This document shows positions 29,879 through 37,597 of a stretch of DNA of 64,000 bases, in pieces. The stretch's first letter is position 1, and each line of letters begins with the position of its first letter. Source of the stretch: an uncultured Maribacter sp. (lineage in GTDB: Bacteria; Bacteroidota; Bacteroidia; Flavobacteriales; Flavobacteriaceae); NCBI GenBank assembly GCA_947493885.1, contig CANLTE010000002.1:620001-684000 (forward strand), given 5' to 3'. The notes under the pieces were generated by a model. It had not been told where the DNA came from. It ran no database searches and worked only from the letters and a program-made list of their open reading frames with translations. The position numbers were made by a program, and so were the translations under genes.

Positions 29879-31294
29879 ATGAAAAAAATTACGTTTCTTC
29901 TTCTGTTCTGTTTGGTATACACTGTAAATGCGCAGCAGCAATTAAGGATAAAGAAAGGTGTTATTGTAGATAGCCTTGCTATAAATGATTCTATTTTCGA
30001 AAGTTTTGCGCTTTACCTCCCTAAGTCATTTACTACCGAGAAAAAATGGCCCATTGTTTACGTTTTTGACATGCAGGGTAGAGGAAAAGAGGCTTTGTCA
30101 ATGTTTGTAGAATCAGCTGAAAATCAAGGGTATGTTTTGGCAGCTTCAAATAGTGTTAGAGATAGTCTTCCTCTTTCTGAAAATGTACTGAAATCTGGAA
30201 GGTTGTTTTCTACAGTTTCTTCCATTTTTCCAATTAATGAGCGAAGGAGGTATACCGCTGGTTTTGGTAGCGGAGCTCGTTTTGCTTCAATAAATGCAAT
30301 TTTGTATAAAGAAATTAAAGGGGTGATTTCATGTGGAGCTTCTATTGCTAATATTGAGTTATTAGATGTGAAAAAGCCTATGCATTTTGTTGGTGTTGTG
30401 GGGCGTGAAGATTATAATTACCCTGAAATGATTCGGGGTAAAAAAATATTAAACCTCAAAAAATTTCCAAATCAATTAATTGTGTTTGATGGAGGACATA
30501 AGCGTCCGGGGCCATATCATATAGAAAAGGCTATGAAATACTTAACCTTTTCAGCTATGATAAACAAAGTAATGGAAAAAGATTCTGTGTTTATAAATAA
30601 ATTTTATGAAGAAGAACTTAATGAGATAGATATGCTAAATAAGCAAAGAAAACCATTACTTGCTGGGCATCTACTTGCTGAAAGTATTAAAATTTTCAGT
30701 TTCAATACTTCAATAGATTCTTTAAAAAATTATAGAAAGTATTTACGAAAATCTAAATTGTTTAAAGCGTACAACGCTAATCAAAATAAGTTTTTGCTTA
30801 AAGAATCATTTCTACTAGATGAATACAATTACTATATAGAAGAAGATTTGCAAACGTATAATTACAACAATTTAGGTTGGTGGAATTATCAAATGGAAGA
30901 ACTTAATAAGTTTGAGAAAAGTAACGAGTTTTTTCAAAAACAAATGGCTGTTAGACTAAAGGGTTACTTGGGGGCGCTGTTAGAAGATAATATTGAGTCT
31001 ACAAAGTTTAATGAAATTGTGGACGAAGAAGCGTTAAGACTTTTATACATGTTAAAAACCATAATAAAGCCAAAAGTTTTTTCAAGTTATTTGGAGGTAA
31101 TTTCACTAAGCTCAAAAGTGGAAGATTTTGGTACTGCCTTGTTTTATTTAGAAGAATTATTAAAACAAGGGTACACTAATAAAACGGAGCTCTATAGTGT
31201 TAAACATACAGCATTATTAAGAATTTCGCCTGAGTTTAATGTGCTGGTTACAAAGTATCTTAACCAAGCCCGCTACGACGTTATTCAACAATAA
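29879..31294 (+). CDS. Exported esterase-like alpha/beta-hydrolase with missing nucleophile
   Basis: A 471-residue exported protein (signal MKKITFLLLFCLVYTVNAQ). Residues about 25-235 follow the esterase/PHB-depolymerase fold: ALYLPKSF, WPIVYVFDMQG, TAGFGSGARFA and FDGGHKRPGPYHI. At the nucleophile elbow the expected G-x-S-x-G reads GFGSG (128-132), so residue 130 is Gly and only Ser131 is nearby. The catalytic Ser may be lost. The remaining 230 residues form a helical, TPR-like domain. It may be a non-catalytic binding protein. Its last 14 bases overlap the convergent DJ-1-like gene. Confidence 0.6.
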   Translation: MKKITFLLLFCLVYTVNAQQQLRIKKGVIVDSLAINDSIFESFALYLPKSFTTEKKWPIVYVFDMQGRGKEALSMFVESAENQGYVLAASNSVRDSLPLSENVLKSGRLFSTVSSIFPINERRRYTAGFGSGARFASINAILYKEIKGVISCGASIANIELLDVKKPMHFVGVVGREDYNYPEMIRGKKILNLKKFPNQLIVFDGGHKRPGPYHIEKAMKYLTFSAMINKVMEKDSVFINKFYEEELNEIDMLNKQRKPLLAGHLLAESIKIFSFNTSIDSLKNYRKYLRKSKLFKAYNANQNKFLLKESFLLDEYNYYIEEDLQTYNYNNLGWWNYQMEELNKFEKSNEFFQKQMAVRLKGYLGALLEDNIESTKFNEIVDEEALRLLYMLKTIIKPKVFSSYLEVISLSSKVEDFGTALFYLEELLKQGYTNKTELYSVKHTALLRISPEFNVLVTKYLNQARYDVIQQ

Positions 31295-32018
31295 AGTGGG
31301 GTGTTTTTTCAATATTCCAATCAATTACAAGACCGCCAGCTAGGGATTTAGCTGTTTCTTTTCCATATAGTAATTCACATAAATATAGTGCCGCTTCAAA
31401 ACTTTTTGCACCACCAGCTGATGTTATGTACTTTTCGTCGTGAACAAAAAGTACACTATCTTTTACTTTTAAATGAGGAAACATTTTTTTGTATTTAGGA
31501 ATATCACTAGGGAAAGTGGTAGAAGTAACATTGTCAAGAATTCCTGTTTTAGCTAGAACAAAAGCTCCATCGCAATGACTGGTAATGTACATGGCAGTTT
31601 TATCAATCTTTTTTACAAAATTTAGCATAAGCGCATCATTTAAATCAGAATCTAAATGATGTTCCGCGCTGGGTACTACAAGAATATCTATGTGGGGAAT
31701 TGAATCCTTAGTATAATCAAAATCTGGCAATATTCGTACACCTTCAAAGGTTGTAATGGGCTCTAGAGTATTTGCAACCGTAAAGGTATTCATAGCCTTA
31801 ATGTTTTCACGGAACTTAGTATGTTGAAAAATATCAAAAGGTGCTGTAAACTCTGTATTAAAGGTTCCATCCATAATTAAAAATGCAACATTATATCGCT
31901 CAGAAATTATTTCAGGCAATTGTCTTTTTTTAGTAATGGGTTTATCTTTTTCAAGCATGACATCTTTACAACCAAATAACATCAATACTAAAAGCATACT
32001 ACAAAGTATTTTCACCAT
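31281..32018 (-). CDS. DJ-1/PfpI family lipoprotein
   Basis: A 245-residue member of the DJ-1/PfpI (class I glutamine amidotransferase-like) superfamily. It has an unusual lipoprotein signal (lipobox LFGC, Cys17), so it acts outside the cytoplasm. The nucleophile elbow ITSHCDGAFVLA places the reactive cysteine at Cys149, and a Glu in the early strand (TEFTAPFDIF) fits the family. It overlaps the upstream MFS gene by seven bases and is in its operon. The resemblance to the DJ-1-like half of GlxA-type regulators is noted, but no HTH is present. Substrate unknown. Confidence 0.8.
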   Translation of the reverse strand: MVKILCSMLLVLMLFGCKDVMLEKDKPITKKRQLPEIISERYNVAFLIMDGTFNTEFTAPFDIFQHTKFRENIKAMNTFTVANTLEPITTFEGVRILPDFDYTKDSIPHIDILVVPSAEHHLDSDLNDALMLNFVKKIDKTAMYITSHCDGAFVLAKTGILDNVTSTTFPSDIPKYKKMFPHLKVKDSVLFVHDEKYITSAGGAKSFEAALYLCELLYGKETAKSLAGGLVIDWNIEKTPHFIVE

Positions 32019-33211
32019 TTCCTTTTATTTTTATGAAGGAATAAAAGTAGTAAAATACTTAATAAGCAAATAAAAGAAGTTATATACCAAGTATTTGTAA
32101 AACCTAAAATTGCAATAGCGTTCATTCCAGAATTATGGCCAAATATATGTGCTACGGAGTATGCCATGCTGTAAAGAGCCATATATTCACCTTGTTTTCC
32201 TTTTTTTGCGCTTTCCATGGCAATGGCATTCGAAAAAGGAAAAGCAATCATTTCGCCCAAAGTCATTAAGGCCATGCCAATAACTAATATGCCAACCCAT
32301 GGGACAATATTTAGAACTAAAAAACTTAAACCTATTAATGTTATCCCTACGGAAACATTTGTAAATTTTGACCAATTTTTTCTCTCTAGATATTTAATTA
32401 ATGGCATTTCTAAGCTAAAAATCACAAAACCATTAAATGCTAGGAGCATGCCTATCTGAGATTCTTTTAAACCATGAATGTTACTATAAAATATTGGCAT
32501 AGTAGAAAAATACTGTACAAAAGCAAATGCCAATAATACTAGTGCTCCAATAAAAGTAAGATACCTATAATCTCTATAAGCTGAAATGGGAGAGTTGTTG
32601 TATATGTTACTTTGTGTTTTCGCCTTTTTAGGGTTGAGCACCATTAATAAAAGTATTCCAGCTAAAAAACATGTTGTTCCATCTATCCAAAACAATTTGG
32701 AGTAGTCAAAAGTTGCTATTATAAGGCCTCCAATTGCCGGACCAGCAGAAAAGCCAAGATTTATTGCCAATCGAATTAAAGTTACGGATCTGGTTTTGTT
32801 TTCTGGTTTGCTATAGGCGCTGAGTGCTACAAATGTAGCAGGTCTAAACGCATCAGCTATTATCATAAGTAGAAATACGCCTGCGCATATTGACCAAAAT
32901 TCACTTAGGTATTGAATACCAATAAAAGCTATGCCAGTAAATAATAAACTAAAGTACATAACTCTATAATATCCAAAGGTGTCTGTAAGCTTTCCGCCAA
33001 TCCAATTACCTATTAAGGATCCCAAACCAAAGCAGGTCATTATGCTACCAACGTTTTTTAAAGTGAAACCAAGATTCTGAATCAAATACAAAGACAAAAA
33101 GGGAATAACCATAGTGCCAGCTCTATTGATTAAAGTTATCAGAGCTAGCCACCAAACTTCATTAGATAAACCTTTGAATGATGATACGTAGTTAGTAAAT
33201 AATTTTTTCAT
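32012..33211 (-). CDS. MFS transporter under a structured leader
   Basis: A 399-residue MFS permease with twelve hydrophobic helices. The N-terminal half contains GSLIGNWIGGKLTDTFGYYRV, the family's loop 2-3 motif, which suggests an efflux-type (DHA1-like) exporter. ATG 33211 (MKKLFTNYVSSF) is chosen; an earlier in-frame ATG at 33232 falls against the leader terminator. It is translated before the DJ-1-like lipoprotein gene with a seven-base overlap. Upstream lies a leader with competing hairpins (33231-33347), so expression is probably controlled by attenuation. Substrate unknown. Confidence 0.88.
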   Translation of the reverse strand: MKKLFTNYVSSFKGLSNEVWWLALITLINRAGTMVIPFLSLYLIQNLGFTLKNVGSIMTCFGLGSLIGNWIGGKLTDTFGYYRVMYFSLLFTGIAFIGIQYLSEFWSICAGVFLLMIIADAFRPATFVALSAYSKPENKTRSVTLIRLAINLGFSAGPAIGGLIIATFDYSKLFWIDGTTCFLAGILLLMVLNPKKAKTQSNIYNNSPISAYRDYRYLTFIGALVLLAFAFVQYFSTMPIFYSNIHGLKESQIGMLLAFNGFVIFSLEMPLIKYLERKNWSKFTNVSVGITLIGLSFLVLNIVPWVGILVIGMALMTLGEMIAFPFSNAIAMESAKKGKQGEYMALYSMAYSVAHIFGHNSGMNAIAILGFTNTWYITSFICLLSILLLLFLHKNKRKW

Positions 33212-33230
33212 TATTATTAATTTTGAGCAC

Positions 33231-33347
33231 AAAAAAAGCCTGACGTTTAGGCCAGGCTTTTTTGTATATATTTTCGATTTTCATCAATTTTTAACACAGC
33301 CGGGCCTATCCAGTTTTACTGAATACCACAGGGTTGTATTAATTGAT
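33231..33347 (-). ncRNA. Structured leader / candidate riboswitch or attenuator of the MFS-DJ-1 operon
   Basis: Read on the minus strand, ATCAATT and AATTGAT (plus 33341-33347 and 33283-33289), extended by AATACA/TGTGTT, close a long P1 stem. P1 encloses a hairpin ATTCAG-TAAAA-CTGGAT (33308-33324). Downstream a terminator stem GCCTG/CAGGC (33238-33257) carries a T tract. AGGCCCGGC (33299-33307), partly inside P1, is complementary at 8 of 9 positions to GCCTGGCCT (33249-33257), part of the terminator, so the two folds exclude each other. I recognise no known riboswitch class. This is read from sequence only. Confidence 0.6.
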
Positions 33348-33376
33348 AAAAAAGTTGTCATTAGTAATATTTGAAT

Positions 33377-33384
33377 CAAAACTA
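33377..33384 (-). promoter_or_regulatory. -7 promoter element of the MFS-DJ-1 operon
   Basis: The minus strand reads TAGTTTTG, matching TAnnTTTG. It predicts a leader of about 160 bases that contains the whole structured region. Confidence 0.5.
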
Positions 33385-33430: not shown

Positions 33431-34078
33431 ATGAGAATTGTTGCTTTGTGTTTATTATTTATGGTACTGTCTTGTAAGCAAGGAAAGAGGTATCATGATG
33501 AGGTTGAATATGCCAATAAGGAGATTGAAGTAAAAGATGCTTTAAGCGAGATTTTAAAATTCCAAAAAGATTTAAATGATGAATTTAGAAACCCAAAAAC
33601 ATCCCCTTTGCCAGATAGATACCGTAAAGATTTTGTTACACTAGATTTTTTTGAGCCCGACACCAATTACATAGTTACTGGAAAGTTAGTTAGAACCCCA
33701 GAAGCTTTACCTTTTTTAATGCCCACAACAACGGATAGAAAATCGGAAGAAGTGGTTTATGGCATAGCACACTTTGTTTTAAACGGTAAAAAACAGCAGT
33801 TGGAAATCTATCAAAGCTCTGAGGTATCTCAAAAAGATGGTTATGCCGATTATTTGTTTTTGCCTTTTACAGATAAAACAAATGGAGATGAGACTTATAC
33901 GGGTGGAAGATATCTTGAGCTTTCAATACCTAAAGGGGATAGTATTGTTATAAATTTTAATAAGGCGTATAACCCATATTGTGCCTATAATAAAAAGTAT
34001 TCATGCCCAATAGTTCCTGATGTAAATAATATTAATTTATATGTTAGGGCAGGAGTTAAGGCTTTTAAAAAGAAATAA
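33431..34078 (+). CDS. DUF1684 lipoprotein
   Basis: A 215-residue lipoprotein (lipobox MVLSC, Cys15) of the DUF1684 family. Conserved blocks are SPLPDRYRKDFVTLDFFEPD, the middle YADYLFLPFTDKTNG, and the signature NPYCAYNKKYSCPIVPDVNNINL with its two cysteines, followed by VRAGVKAF. The family fold is a beta structure, and the cysteines and NPYCAYN block suggest a metal or ligand site. The family's function is unknown. It is divergent from the MFS operon and followed by a clear terminator. Confidence 0.9.
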   Translation: MRIVALCLLFMVLSCKQGKRYHDEVEYANKEIEVKDALSEILKFQKDLNDEFRNPKTSPLPDRYRKDFVTLDFFEPDTNYIVTGKLVRTPEALPFLMPTTTDRKSEEVVYGIAHFVLNGKKQQLEIYQSSEVSQKDGYADYLFLPFTDKTNGDETYTGGRYLELSIPKGDSIVINFNKAYNPYCAYNKKYSCPIVPDVNNINLYVRAGVKAFKKK

Positions 34079-34130: not shown

Positions 34131-35207
34131 TTAGAAAGAATAAATAGCAGCAAGGGTAAAAGTTGCTAGGCTATCTGAAGCTTCACCATCACTATCAGTG
34201 AAGCCATCTTTTAAACTATCTAGTCTAAATTCTGGTTTTAAGATAAAGTTGTCTACAGAGTAGCTGCCTGTAAGAGTAAGAGCAGTTGTAGCATCTATAT
34301 CTAAATCGCCTATTCCGTCAACATCATCAACAATACGTTGGAAATATTCAGCTCTTAAACCAATGGAGAAAGAATCAGATGTAGCTATTTGTGGGTAAAG
34401 AGCAACACCATAAAACCCAGTTTTAGCATCAAGCTCAACATCATTTATCTCAGCGGTACCATTGGAATTAATGTCATAAGCTGCGTTGATTCCTAAAAAG
34501 AAAGAGTCAGTTATATCAAATCCACCTGTAAAATCGATTTCAGTTCCTAACCCACCATTGTTACCACTGTCGTAGTAAAAGTTTAAATATTGACCGTAGA
34601 AACCTAGCTGTGCTCCAAAAGAATATTCACCAGTTGTTGTAATATCGTTGGTGTCCCAAGGGTTCATTACACCAACCATTAAACTAAAATCATCGGATAA
34701 AGCAAAATCAGCTTTTACACCCATATGTGAAAAAGGTCCGTTAGAGAATAAGTACGAAGTACTATAGTTAAAATTTGATTGCGGAGCAATAACTTCGTAT
34801 CCTAAGAAGGTATTAAAACGACCCATTGTTAAGGTAGTTTTGTCTGAAACATTCCAGTAAACGTAAGCTTGGTTAACAATACCATCAACAATATCACTGT
34901 TGAAAGTTGCTCCTTCACCTCTTGGTCCAACAACTAAATCAAGCACAGCGCCAACTTTGCCAGTTTCATAACTAGCAATTAAATTACCCATTCCTAAGGC
35001 AAAACCTGTTTGATTAGCAAATGCTGTTCCTGGGTCTGTTGAAGCCTCACCTGCATCGTTGAACGCAGTTCTGAAATAAGCATCAACACTACCGTTAATA
35101 GTTAATTGTGGCTTTTCTTTTGCTTCCTCTTCTTGAGCAAACGCTACTGAAGTGGTTAATACTAGTGCTGCCATTGCAGCGAAATTTTTGATTGAAAATA
35201 ATTTCAT
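34131..35207 (-). CDS. Outer-membrane beta-barrel porin (ammonium-cluster associated)
   Basis: A 358-residue exported protein (signal ending SVAFAQ) with alternating aromatic beta strands throughout, negatively charged loops and a C-terminal strand ATFTLAAIYSF typical of BAM substrates. The region YWNVSDKTTLTMGRFNTFLGYEVIAP fits the BBP2/porin-like group of Bacteroidetes outer-membrane proteins. It lies just downstream of amt and glnB on the same strand but after a 138-base gap with its own CCCT/AGGG dyad. A role in passage of nitrogen compounds through the outer membrane is inferred from that position only. Confidence 0.8.
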   Translation of the reverse strand: MKLFSIKNFAAMAALVLTTSVAFAQEEEAKEKPQLTINGSVDAYFRTAFNDAGEASTDPGTAFANQTGFALGMGNLIASYETGKVGAVLDLVVGPRGEGATFNSDIVDGIVNQAYVYWNVSDKTTLTMGRFNTFLGYEVIAPQSNFNYSTSYLFSNGPFSHMGVKADFALSDDFSLMVGVMNPWDTNDITTTGEYSFGAQLGFYGQYLNFYYDSGNNGGLGTEIDFTGGFDITDSFFLGINAAYDINSNGTAEINDVELDAKTGFYGVALYPQIATSDSFSIGLRAEYFQRIVDDVDGIGDLDIDATTALTLTGSYSVDNFILKPEFRLDSLKDGFTDSDGEASDSLATFTLAAIYSF

Positions 35208-35225
35208 GATTCTAAGTTTTGATTT

Positions 35226-35244
35226 ACCCTAAATAGTTAAGGGT
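35226..35244. promoter_or_regulatory. ACCCT/AGGGT dyad upstream of the porin gene
   Basis: ACCCT-N9-AGGGT dyad (35226-35244), 19 bases upstream of the porin ATG, similar in pattern to dyads before glnN and glnB-amt. Confidence 0.4.
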
Positions 35245-35272
35245 TTGTAGTTGAGATTAGCATGTTTTCTAA

Positions 35273-35298
35273 CTGGGCACTGCTTTTACAGCACCCAA
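35273..35298 (-). other. Hairpin between amt and porin genes
   Basis: On the minus strand TGGGTGCTG and CAGTGCCCA form a 9-bp stem with two G-U pairs around a TAAAAG loop. No T tract follows, so an RNA-processing or stability element is as likely as a terminator. Confidence 0.4.
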
Positions 35299-35345
35299 TT
35301 AAAAACCATATTTTTTAATTTTATATTGTTATAGGTAAGGCCTAA

Positions 35346-36584
35346 TTAGTGCTGATTCATTCTAAAGTCAGAATAAGCATCCATACCATGTTCATGGATA
35401 TCTAAACCTTCAAGTTCTTCCTCTTTAGATACTCTTAAGCCTAATGTAGCTTTTAGTGTTCCTAAAATTATTAATGAAGTAACTATACAGAATCCTCCGA
35501 TTATAGCAACACCTGATAATTGAGTCATAAACTGGCTTACACCTGCTTTATCTCCAAATAAGCCTACTGCTAAAGTTCCCCAGATTCCACAGATAAGGTG
35601 TACTGCAATAGCACCAACTGGGTCATCAAGCTTTAACTTGTCTATAAGAGCAACAGCTAGCACAATTAATAAACCTGCAAGGAAACCAATAACAACAGCT
35701 TCGTTAGGAGACATTAAATCTGCACCAGCAGTAATACCTACTAAACCACCTAAGATTCCGTTTAAGAACATTGTTAAGTCAAGGTTTTTGTATAAAATAG
35801 TAGAAAGGGTAAAAGCTCCAAAACCACCTGCTGCTGCTGCTAAACTTGTAGTAACTAATACTAATGAAGTTAATTCTGGGTCAGCAGAAAGTACAGAACC
35901 TCCGTTGAAACCAAACCAACCTAACCAAAGTATTAAAACACCAGCAGTTGCTAAAGGTATATTGTGTCCAGGAATCGCTTTTGGTTTTCCGTCGCTACCA
36001 AATTTACCAATTCTAGCACCTAATAGCGCTACTGCAACTAATGCCGCCCATCCACCAACAGAGTGAACTAATGTAGAACCAGCAAAGTCATAGAATCCCC
36101 ATGAGTCTAAGAATCCTCCACCCCATTTCCAAGCACCTACTATTGGGTATACTAAACCAACATAGATTACTGTGAAAATCATGAAAGAACCAATTTTAAT
36201 ACGCTCTGCTACTGCACCAGAAACAATTGTTGCAGCTGTAGCGGCAAACATTCCTTGAAAAAGAAAATCTGTCCACCATGTATATCCGCCATCAGCGTAA
36301 TCTGGTGTCATTCCTCCTTCAGGAGCTCCAATGCCAAATCCAGCGAATTTTAAAATCCCAGCATCTCCATCTTCAAAGCCGGGGTACATTAGGTTAAAAC
36401 CAAATGCATAATAAAGTAATAATCCACCAGTTATGATGAAAATGTTTTTAAATAATATGTTTATTGTATTTTTTTGTCTTGTAAGACCTATTTCTAAAAA
36501 AGCAAATCCTGTGTGCATGAAGAATACTAAGGCAGTCGCCACCATCATCCATACATTGTTAGCTGTAAATAATCCTGCGTCCAT
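35346..36584 (-). CDS. amtB: Ammonium transporter
   Basis: A 412-residue Amt/Rh channel with eleven helices. The twin histidines of the pore are present: His174 in STLVHSVGG and His329 in IAVHLICG. Other family motifs are YPIVGAWKWGGGFLD and WFGFNGGS. No cleavable signal is needed; the N terminus starts in the first helix (MDAGLFTANNVWMM). It lies 28 bases downstream of the PII gene, the classic glnK-amtB order. The C-terminal cytosolic tail (LRVSKEEELEGLDIHEHGMDAY) is the PII-docking region. Confidence 0.97.
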   Translation of the reverse strand: MDAGLFTANNVWMMVATALVFFMHTGFAFLEIGLTRQKNTINILFKNIFIITGGLLLYYAFGFNLMYPGFEDGDAGILKFAGFGIGAPEGGMTPDYADGGYTWWTDFLFQGMFAATAATIVSGAVAERIKIGSFMIFTVIYVGLVYPIVGAWKWGGGFLDSWGFYDFAGSTLVHSVGGWAALVAVALLGARIGKFGSDGKPKAIPGHNIPLATAGVLILWLGWFGFNGGSVLSADPELTSLVLVTTSLAAAAGGFGAFTLSTILYKNLDLTMFLNGILGGLVGITAGADLMSPNEAVVIGFLAGLLIVLAVALIDKLKLDDPVGAIAVHLICGIWGTLAVGLFGDKAGVSQFMTQLSGVAIIGGFCIVTSLIILGTLKATLGLRVSKEEELEGLDIHEHGMDAYSDFRMNQH

Positions 36585-36612
36585 TTGTATTTAAGTTTAG
36601 TTGATTAGTAAT

Positions 36613-36951
36613 TTAGTTGATACCGGCTTGACCGTTTTCTTTGGTTCTTATTCTATAAGCTTCTGAAACTTCGCTTACGAAAATTTTACCGTCTCCAACA
36701 TTTCCTGTATATGCAGAATCTAACAGGGCATTAACTGTGCGATCTAAAAATTCGTCAGATACTACAATAGATAAGTATCTTCTTTGAATGTCAGTGGTAC
36801 TATATGTTATACCTCTGTAAACATGTCCTTGTTTTTCATTTCCAACTCCAGTCACATCCCAGTAACTAAAGAAGTTTACCTCGATTTGATGCAATGCCTC
36901 TTTGACATCCTCAAACTTGGATTTTCTGATAATTGCCTCGATTTTTTTCAT
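36613..36951 (-). CDS. glnB: PII nitrogen regulatory protein
   Basis: A 112-residue PII signal protein. It has the start MKKIEAIIRKSKF, the T-loop region VGNEKQGHVYRGITYS, and the TGNVGDGKIFV and YRIRT segments that bind ATP and 2-oxoglutarate. The T-loop is about one residue shorter than in E. coli GlnB. A tyrosine lies near the uridylylation position, but conservation of the site cannot be judged. It regulates the downstream Amt channel and probably the glutamine synthetases. A promoter (-7, 36974-36981) and a CCCCTA/TAGGGG dyad precede it. Confidence 0.95.
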   Translation of the reverse strand: MKKIEAIIRKSKFEDVKEALHQIEVNFFSYWDVTGVGNEKQGHVYRGITYSTTDIQRRYLSIVVSDEFLDRTVNALLDSAYTGNVGDGKIFVSEVSEAYRIRTKENGQAGIN

Positions 36952-36973
36952 GATTTATTTGTTTAGATGATGC

Positions 36974-37069
36974 CAAATATATGTTAAAAAGATTATACCC
37001 CTAAAAAAATAGGGGGTGTGAGTTGTATTTTTATTTTTAATTCAAATTGACCCTAAATTTATTATGGGT
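36974..37069 (-). promoter_or_regulatory. glnB-amtB promoter with two CCC/GGG dyads
   Basis: The minus strand has TATATTTG (36974-36981) as the -7 element. CCCCTA-N6-TAGGGG (36998-37015) covers the -33 position. A looser ACCC/GGGT dyad lies further upstream (37050-37069). Placement over the -33 region suggests regulator binding. Confidence 0.5.
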
Positions 37070-37225
37070 ATGATAAATTATAATAAATATTTTGAGGTAT
37101 CCGCAATGTAAATAGCAGGGGTGTGTAGATTATTTGCAATTAATTAGGATGAATAGCACTATATCTTGAGGATAATGCAATTGAAAAGGATTAACACTAA
37201 GAATATTAGTTTTATAAAACGGGCA

Positions 37226-37597
37226 TTATATTATTTTGGATAGCCAAATTCCAGAAATAACAGCCAACACACCAACAGCAATGCTAATAATAGTATAAGA
37301 GGCAAAAGATGCAATGTCGCCATTTTTTAATAACGATTGACCTTCAAATGCAAAAGTGGAAAAAGTAGTAAAGCCACCACAAAAGCCTGTAGTAAGTAAG
37401 AGCGTTTGGTTAGTGGAAAGTATATTTTGTTTTAAAGATAGACCTAAAACAAGACCAATTAGTAAGCAACCAAGTATGTTTGCCAAAAAAGTACCTAAAA
37501 AGAAATTCTGAAAAAATGAGTTGCAGGTTTTAGATATACCATACCTAAGTATACTACCTAAACCTCCCCCTAGAAAAACAAGAAATGCCTGTTTCAT
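37226..37597 (-). CDS. crcB: Fluoride channel CrcB/FluC
   Basis: A 123-residue, four-helix membrane protein of the Fluc family. Signature segments are FLGGGLGSILRYGIS, GTFLANILGCLLIGLVLG and the pore segment TTGFCGGFTTFSTFAFE with its conserved Phe, Thr and Ser residues. It works as a dual-topology dimer that exports fluoride. No fluoride riboswitch could be recognised upstream; a 55-residue protein gene lies 17 bases upstream instead. Confidence 0.95.
   Translation of the reverse strand: MKQAFLVFLGGGLGSILRYGISKTCNSFFQNFFLGTFLANILGCLLIGLVLGLSLKQNILSTNQTLLLTTGFCGGFTTFSTFAFEGQSLLKNGDIASFASYTIISIAVGVLAVISGIWLSKII

Follow-up and report, generated by a model that had tools for sequence, protein, structure and literature searches.

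What controls the passage of RNA polymerase into the MFS transporter gene of this locus, and to what does the control respond? The DNA analysed here (the window) is a stretch of 64,000 nucleotides from an uncultured Maribacter sp., and on its minus strand a leader of 174 nt (33384-33211) runs from a -7 box to the start codon, at 33211, of the presumed regulated gene (32012..33211, minus strand; PF07690, MFS_1 profile at 154.6 bits). The original prediction proposed attenuation by mutually exclusive terminator and antiterminator folds before this exporter, which our analysis supports well in silico, and a leader that senses a small molecule or transcript status; an aptamer for a small molecule is not supported, for the reasons given below. 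The leader is very probably a ribosome-mediated transcription attenuator of the leader-peptide type. Most of its structure lies within an upstream open reading frame (uORF) of 25 codons, which the original prediction overlooked; a riboswitch-like leader can be misread if a small internal reading frame escapes notice.

Layout and alternative folds of the leader

The predicted -7 promoter element is present on the minus strand as TAGTTTTG (33377..33384) and fits TAnnTTTG, the consensus of this box; in 161 of the 169 leaders compared below, the uORF is preceded by a match to TA..TTT[GA]. The uORF (33284..33361, minus strand; MTTFLSINTTLWYSVKLDRPGCVKN, stop codon TGA), recognised by reading the frame and by comparison with relatives, starts 15 nt past the promoter box and stops 23 nt short of the scored terminator arm; within it lie the antiterminator, the inner hairpin and the 5' arm of P1. 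The expected long closing stem P1 was found with 12 pairs (33352-33341 with 33289-33278) and -10.2 kcal/mol: its 5' arm (33341..33352) corresponds to uORF codons 4-7 and its 3' arm (33278..33289) overlaps the uORF stop codon, both arms being placed by duplex energy and by covariation in 24 relatives, the window excluded. Inside it, the internal hairpin TATTCAGT-AAA-ACTGGATA (33307..33325) appears in the minimum free energy (MFE) fold, as had been proposed. The intrinsic terminator also has the predicted form, with the 5' arm AAAGCCTGGC (33251..33260; fold and duplex search), which is the target of the antiterminator, and the 3' arm GTCAGGC (33244-33238; sequence and fold) followed by a tract of seven Ts (arm and tract together 33231..33244), and it ends 19 nt upstream of the MFS start codon.

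The original prediction named a 9-base segment with two alternative partners, which we confirm: GGCCCGGCT (33306-33298) and AGCCTGGCC (33258-33250) read as complementary at 8 of 9 positions. A duplex search returned the same antiterminator element, AGGCCCGGCT (33298..33307, minus strand), which corresponds to uORF codons 19-22 here and has its centre at codons 18-22 in relatives. The alternative partners of this segment lie in the P1/hairpin fold and in the 5' arm of the terminator.

For the 174-nt leader, the folding energy is -47.3 kcal/mol versus -25.8 +/- 3.5 for 200 shuffles (z -6.1, with no shuffle as good), and the leader minus its terminator (33365-33266) has a fold z of -3.6. The observation of a structured leader stands because the fold beats its shuffles and the alternative pairing is present. 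At gathering scores, an Rfam search of the whole window returned one tRNA only and no family in the leader. A permissive search of the leader gave 19 sub-threshold matches, several of them plainly terminator hairpins; among the 19 were the leader-peptide families Bacteroid-trp (RF01692; 26.9 bits, gathering score 49) and Thr_leader (RF00506; 28.2 bits, gathering score 55), from which the window's leader differs in falling under these scores and in lacking a regulatory codon run.

Conservation of the uORF, the terminator and their pairings

Orthologues of the MFS protein (E up to 1e-80) occur in 173 of 299 family genomes. The initial set joined 150 orthologues among the matches listed to six same-genus loci (156 in all); the start codon was placed by script in 139 of them, the other 17 being dropped, and 60 of 80 named loci (20 were duplicates) brought the set to 199 upstream regions. 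A terminator is present in 184 of these 199, and in 169 of the 184 it is preceded, at a distance of 18-38 nt, by an ATG uORF of 18-28 codons. A few of the upstream regions are repeats, the 169 positive uORFs representing 165 distinct sequences. The same rule is satisfied by 4-15 of 184 regions in 20 rounds of dinucleotide shuffling (mean about 10) and by 8 on the reverse complement, while a similar rule applied to the window and the named loci is satisfied by 61 of 79 MFS genes versus 6 of 329 other genes. The other two reading frames over the uORF contain stops in 148 and 147 of the 169 leaders. One mark of an attenuator, a short ORF upstream of an intrinsic terminator, is therefore found here well beyond its null (169/184 versus about 10/184).

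Thirty negative upstream regions were inspected by eye. In two of them (L142 and L189) the uORF begins with GTG, in L095 an ATG uORF is followed by a terminator that the automatic rule overlooked, and in seven (L139, L141, L170, L198, L199, L201 and L204) the uORF lies beyond the length or distance limits. At least L076, L132, L193, L200 and L208 have neither uORF nor terminator, as if the control had been lost as a single unit. Similar uORFs are present at same-genus loci, for example MNFITIYKLVKSYSAKLNRLCYI in L004; the closest named relative of the window is the uncultured Maribacter L182 (96% protein identity). In the wider order, the leader was found in 3 of 17 loci, namely L262 and L263 (same family; the L262 genome was already counted) and L264 (another family), and not in the other 14. 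Judged by the sampled sequences, the leader is widespread within the family Flavobacteriaceae and thins out beyond it.

The pairing between uORF and terminator is a general feature of these leaders: the best duplex between the uORF and the terminator 5' arm scores at least 14 in 148 of the 169, and 141 of these 148 have it centred within codons 18-22. Since the pairing registers shift between leaders, per-sequence swap tests and a fixed-column count for P1 were used. In 67 of 169 leaders, the antiterminator's own arm is a better partner than 95% of unlike arms (control codons 2-13: 9 of 169); by duplex energies, the same preference appears in 47 of 169. When the arm reads ACG(T/C)C, the facing uORF base is G in 6 leaders and T in 4, and when it reads A(A/G)G(T/C)CC, the base is G in 13 and T in 66 (Fisher P 0.005; 27 of the 169 leaders are without the motif and 30 have other arms). 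These comparisons indicate that the antiterminator tracks the terminator arm above chance. For P1, the swap test was positive in 45 of 169 leaders, with 8 (5'UTR; rank count only, as this control includes invalid energies) and 6 in the controls. Codons 8-17 gave a weaker signal against the remainder of the uORF (24 of 169), and default folds of single sequences place codons 8-15 opposite codons 18-22.

Covariation in P1 was studied in 24 of the 36 leaders of the clade with the window's terminator type (those with 23-codon uORFs, two of 26 omitted; window excluded). In this alignment, 74% of cells pair, 15 cells are changed on both sides, and the covariation score of 0.238, versus 0.120 +/- 0.026, was reached by none of 500 shuffles and peaks at the true register (slide 0). 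The four pairs changed on both sides (reached by 120 of 500 shuffles) and the ten further pair types (reached by 41) fall short of significance, and these two of the five measures are the ones less sensitive to relatedness. RNAalifold gave no consensus structure for the 36 leaders of this clade, for the 91 of the other large clade or for the set of 24; for 20 of the 91, it predicted the antiterminator almost without covariation (term 0.03). The uORF, the terminator, the alternative pairings, their conservation and a partial covariation can all be read from the sequences.

How a ribosome may set the switch

The uORF is presumably translated, and stalling on it would switch the fold. The transcript would begin just past the -7 box, and a ribosome would start on the 25-codon uORF. 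During normal translation, the ribosome would reach the end of the uORF and cover the antiterminator near codons 18-22; with the antiterminator covered, the terminator would form and transcription would stop before the MFS gene. A ribosome held at about codon 14 or earlier would mask the P1 5' arm and codons 8-15, which otherwise pair with the antiterminator; the antiterminator would then take the emerging terminator 5' arm, and the antiterminated RNA polymerase would read into the MFS operon.

We modelled this with a footprint (assumed, not fitted) that extends 14 nt upstream and 15 nt downstream from the first base of the P-site codon and blocks pairing in the RNA at the moment when the terminator 5' arm is complete; four or more pairs counted as a formed antiterminator. 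A P site anywhere in codons 1-13 allows it in at least 95% of the 169 leaders. The proportion drops to 82% at codon 14, 44% at 15 and 18% at 16, and does not exceed 2% at codons 17-23; in the leader of the window, the change comes between codons 15 and 16. The switching in the model is the geometry of leader-peptide attenuation, and it shows, in silico only, another mark of an attenuator: an antiterminator that is incompatible with the terminator and that a ribosome can cover or free. The off state is not clean in this simple model: without a ribosome, 78% of leaders still form the antiterminator, and it forms in 11% when the last sense codon is in the P site and in 37% one codon beyond. In the leader of the window, the number of pairs is 6.0 on naked RNA and 4.2 once codon 25, its last, is in the P site. 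Because the naked RNA and the late positions form the antiterminator, the off state in the model needs a ribosome moving through codons 16-24.

The behaviour of the naked RNA, together with the exclusive folds and the stable P1, would also suit a metabolite riboswitch, in which P1 and the inner hairpin constitute an aptamer and its ligand decides between terminator and antiterminator. We consider this very improbable, since neither a described class (in the leader, all Rfam families stay below their gathering scores) nor a conserved aptamer core (no common core is visible between the clades) was found, and the elements sit inside a uORF conserved as a frame.

For a ribosome-read leader, the question is what would hold the ribosome. 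Substitution patterns suggest that the uORF is kept as a frame and its peptide is without overall purifying selection: omega is 1.31 in 54 nearest-neighbour pairs (1.58 and 2.44 in the other frames), and by codons it is below 1 only at 5-8 (0.69) and 9-11 (0.50), reaching 1.33 at 12-14 and 2.55 at 15-17. As the peptide is not conserved, the uORF may report the progress of the ribosome. The composition of the peptide is peculiar: Asp, Glu, Ala and Gly are near-absent in frame, though the sequence drifts freely (D+E 0.6% and A+G 0.9% in codons 2-15 of the 165 distinct uORFs versus 4-6% in other frames). Its net charge is positive in 162 of the 165.

A starvation attenuator of the trp/thr type, stalling at the codons of one scarce amino acid, with the MFS protein moving that amino acid or a relative, has the same architecture; it could draw on the sub-threshold Thr_leader and Bacteroid-trp matches and on the content of Thr, which makes up 14.5% of codons 2-15 versus 4-5% in the other frames. 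However, the regulatory codon run of trp, his and thr attenuators is absent, as is a run of any one amino acid. Within codons 8-16, K is found in 90% of uORFs, S in 82% and T in 81%; these are the most frequent residues, and none occurs in all uORFs, which is evidence against a sensor of one-amino-acid starvation. Thr is missing altogether from two same-genus uORFs, L007 and L008, and the MFS sequence, which is below all NCBIfam cut-offs, is closer to drug pumps than to amino-acid carriers. We regard this explanation as quite unlikely. We are doubtful, to a lesser degree, about a drug-dependent arrest peptide of the mef(E)/erm type, sequence-specific for one antibiotic class. The efflux-type MFS gene downstream would agree with it, as would the S or T that 153 of 169 leaders have within codons 12-15, where the model needs the stall; but omega is 1.33 at codons 12-14, S or T occurs there in 90 of 91 leaders of one clade and in 25 of 36 of the clade with the window's terminator type, and no fixed motif was seen, although a conserved arrest motif under purifying selection would be expected of a peptide of the mef(E)L or ermCL type. 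An S/T stall motif at codons 12-15 is, with this omega, not claimed here.

For the ribosome-mediated attenuator that we favour, the trigger is probably slowed translation, most plausibly caused by ribosome-targeting inhibitors; responses of this kind to inhibitors are reported for bmrCD (PMC4191407), mef(E) (PMC4335068) and toiL (PMC12121999). The natural inducer would then be a ribosome-targeting inhibitor exported by the MFS pump. Tentatively, and with somewhat less than even confidence, we suggest a translation-progress meter common to this family of leaders in Bacteroidota, in which length and positive charge rather than sequence are kept and a hold within approximately the first 14 codons, by whatever agent or shortage, turns one efflux operon on. 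As the peptide is free and the frame, length and pairings are kept, the leaders offer many natural variants for testing what the sensing of ribosome progress needs.

Known attenuators and the presumed target genes

Attenuators of this kind are known, and the family described here is apparently undescribed. The mef(E)/mel attenuator of Streptococcus pneumoniae (PMC4335068) resembles it in the leader peptide, alternative stem-loops, intrinsic terminator and downstream efflux gene, but its peptide MTASMRLR has 8 residues and belongs to another phylum, whereas here 18-28 variable codons include the antiterminator in their coding part. In bmrB-bmrCD of Bacillus subtilis (PMC4191407), a small ORF (translated there), alternative stem-loops and a drug transporter are combined in a similar way, and the system responds to protein-synthesis inhibitors, as proposed here; that transporter is of the ABC type and the terminator is reported to lie within the bmrB coding region, in contrast to the MFS gene and the terminator after the uORF in our case. 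The toiL uORF of the Escherichia coli topAI locus is proposed (PMC12121999) to sense antibiotics of multiple classes by stalls at different positions, as we propose for this leader, but it acts on translation and Rho termination in a toxin-antitoxin operon, unlike the intrinsic terminator here. Nearer in taxonomy, structured 5' regions of Flavobacterium psychrophilum, from the same bacterial family, bear clues of leader-peptide attenuation; they precede amino-acid biosynthesis operons, and 'MFS' is absent from the main text (PMC9723704). Among the literature matches listed, we found neither a description of this leader nor such an attenuator on an efflux gene in this bacterial family. Our data suggest that, throughout a large and mostly marine bacterial family, a conserved efflux-type gene is under inducible control read by the ribosome.

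The MFS gene itself is a probable drug-efflux gene as judged by its sequence: the closest solved relative of its product is NorA (46.9 bits), and the best NCBIfam match is TIGR00900 at 69.3 bits, far under the cut-off of 319.6. The TIGR00900 class presumably includes macrolide pumps.

In the original prediction, the controlled operon consisted of the exporter and a DJ-1/PfpI lipoprotein gene (31281..32018, minus strand; PF01965 by profile), which overlaps the MFS stop by 7 nt. The exporter remains the presumed target, but the DJ-1 gene is not its constant partner: in the 80 named loci, inspected by eye, the next gene is DJ-1-like in 21, VOC-like in 17, YpdA-like in 9 and other in 4, and 29 have no close same-strand ORF of at least 90 residues after the MFS gene. 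In 29 of the 80, a homologue of DJ-1 is encoded within 3 kb, and the four same-genus loci L183-L186 are without DJ-1, the leader being kept in these genomes. In other genera, the MFS gene is followed by a VOC/glyoxalase gene (L236:4209-4583) or by a gene for a YpdA family putative bacillithiol disulfide reductase (L235:4212-5174). One VOC and one YpdA protein were confirmed by profile, and these neighbours hint at a detoxification setting.

Divergently upstream of the leader lies a DUF1684 gene (33431-34078, plus strand), with a homologue in 73 of the 80 named loci and with the recurring block ATACAACATA as a candidate promoter. Beyond it, the minus strand of the window at 34131-37597, near the genes of which no Rfam family reaches its gathering score, encodes a BBP2 porin recognised by profile, and other ORFs there resemble what we take to be an ammonium channel, a PII protein and CrcB.
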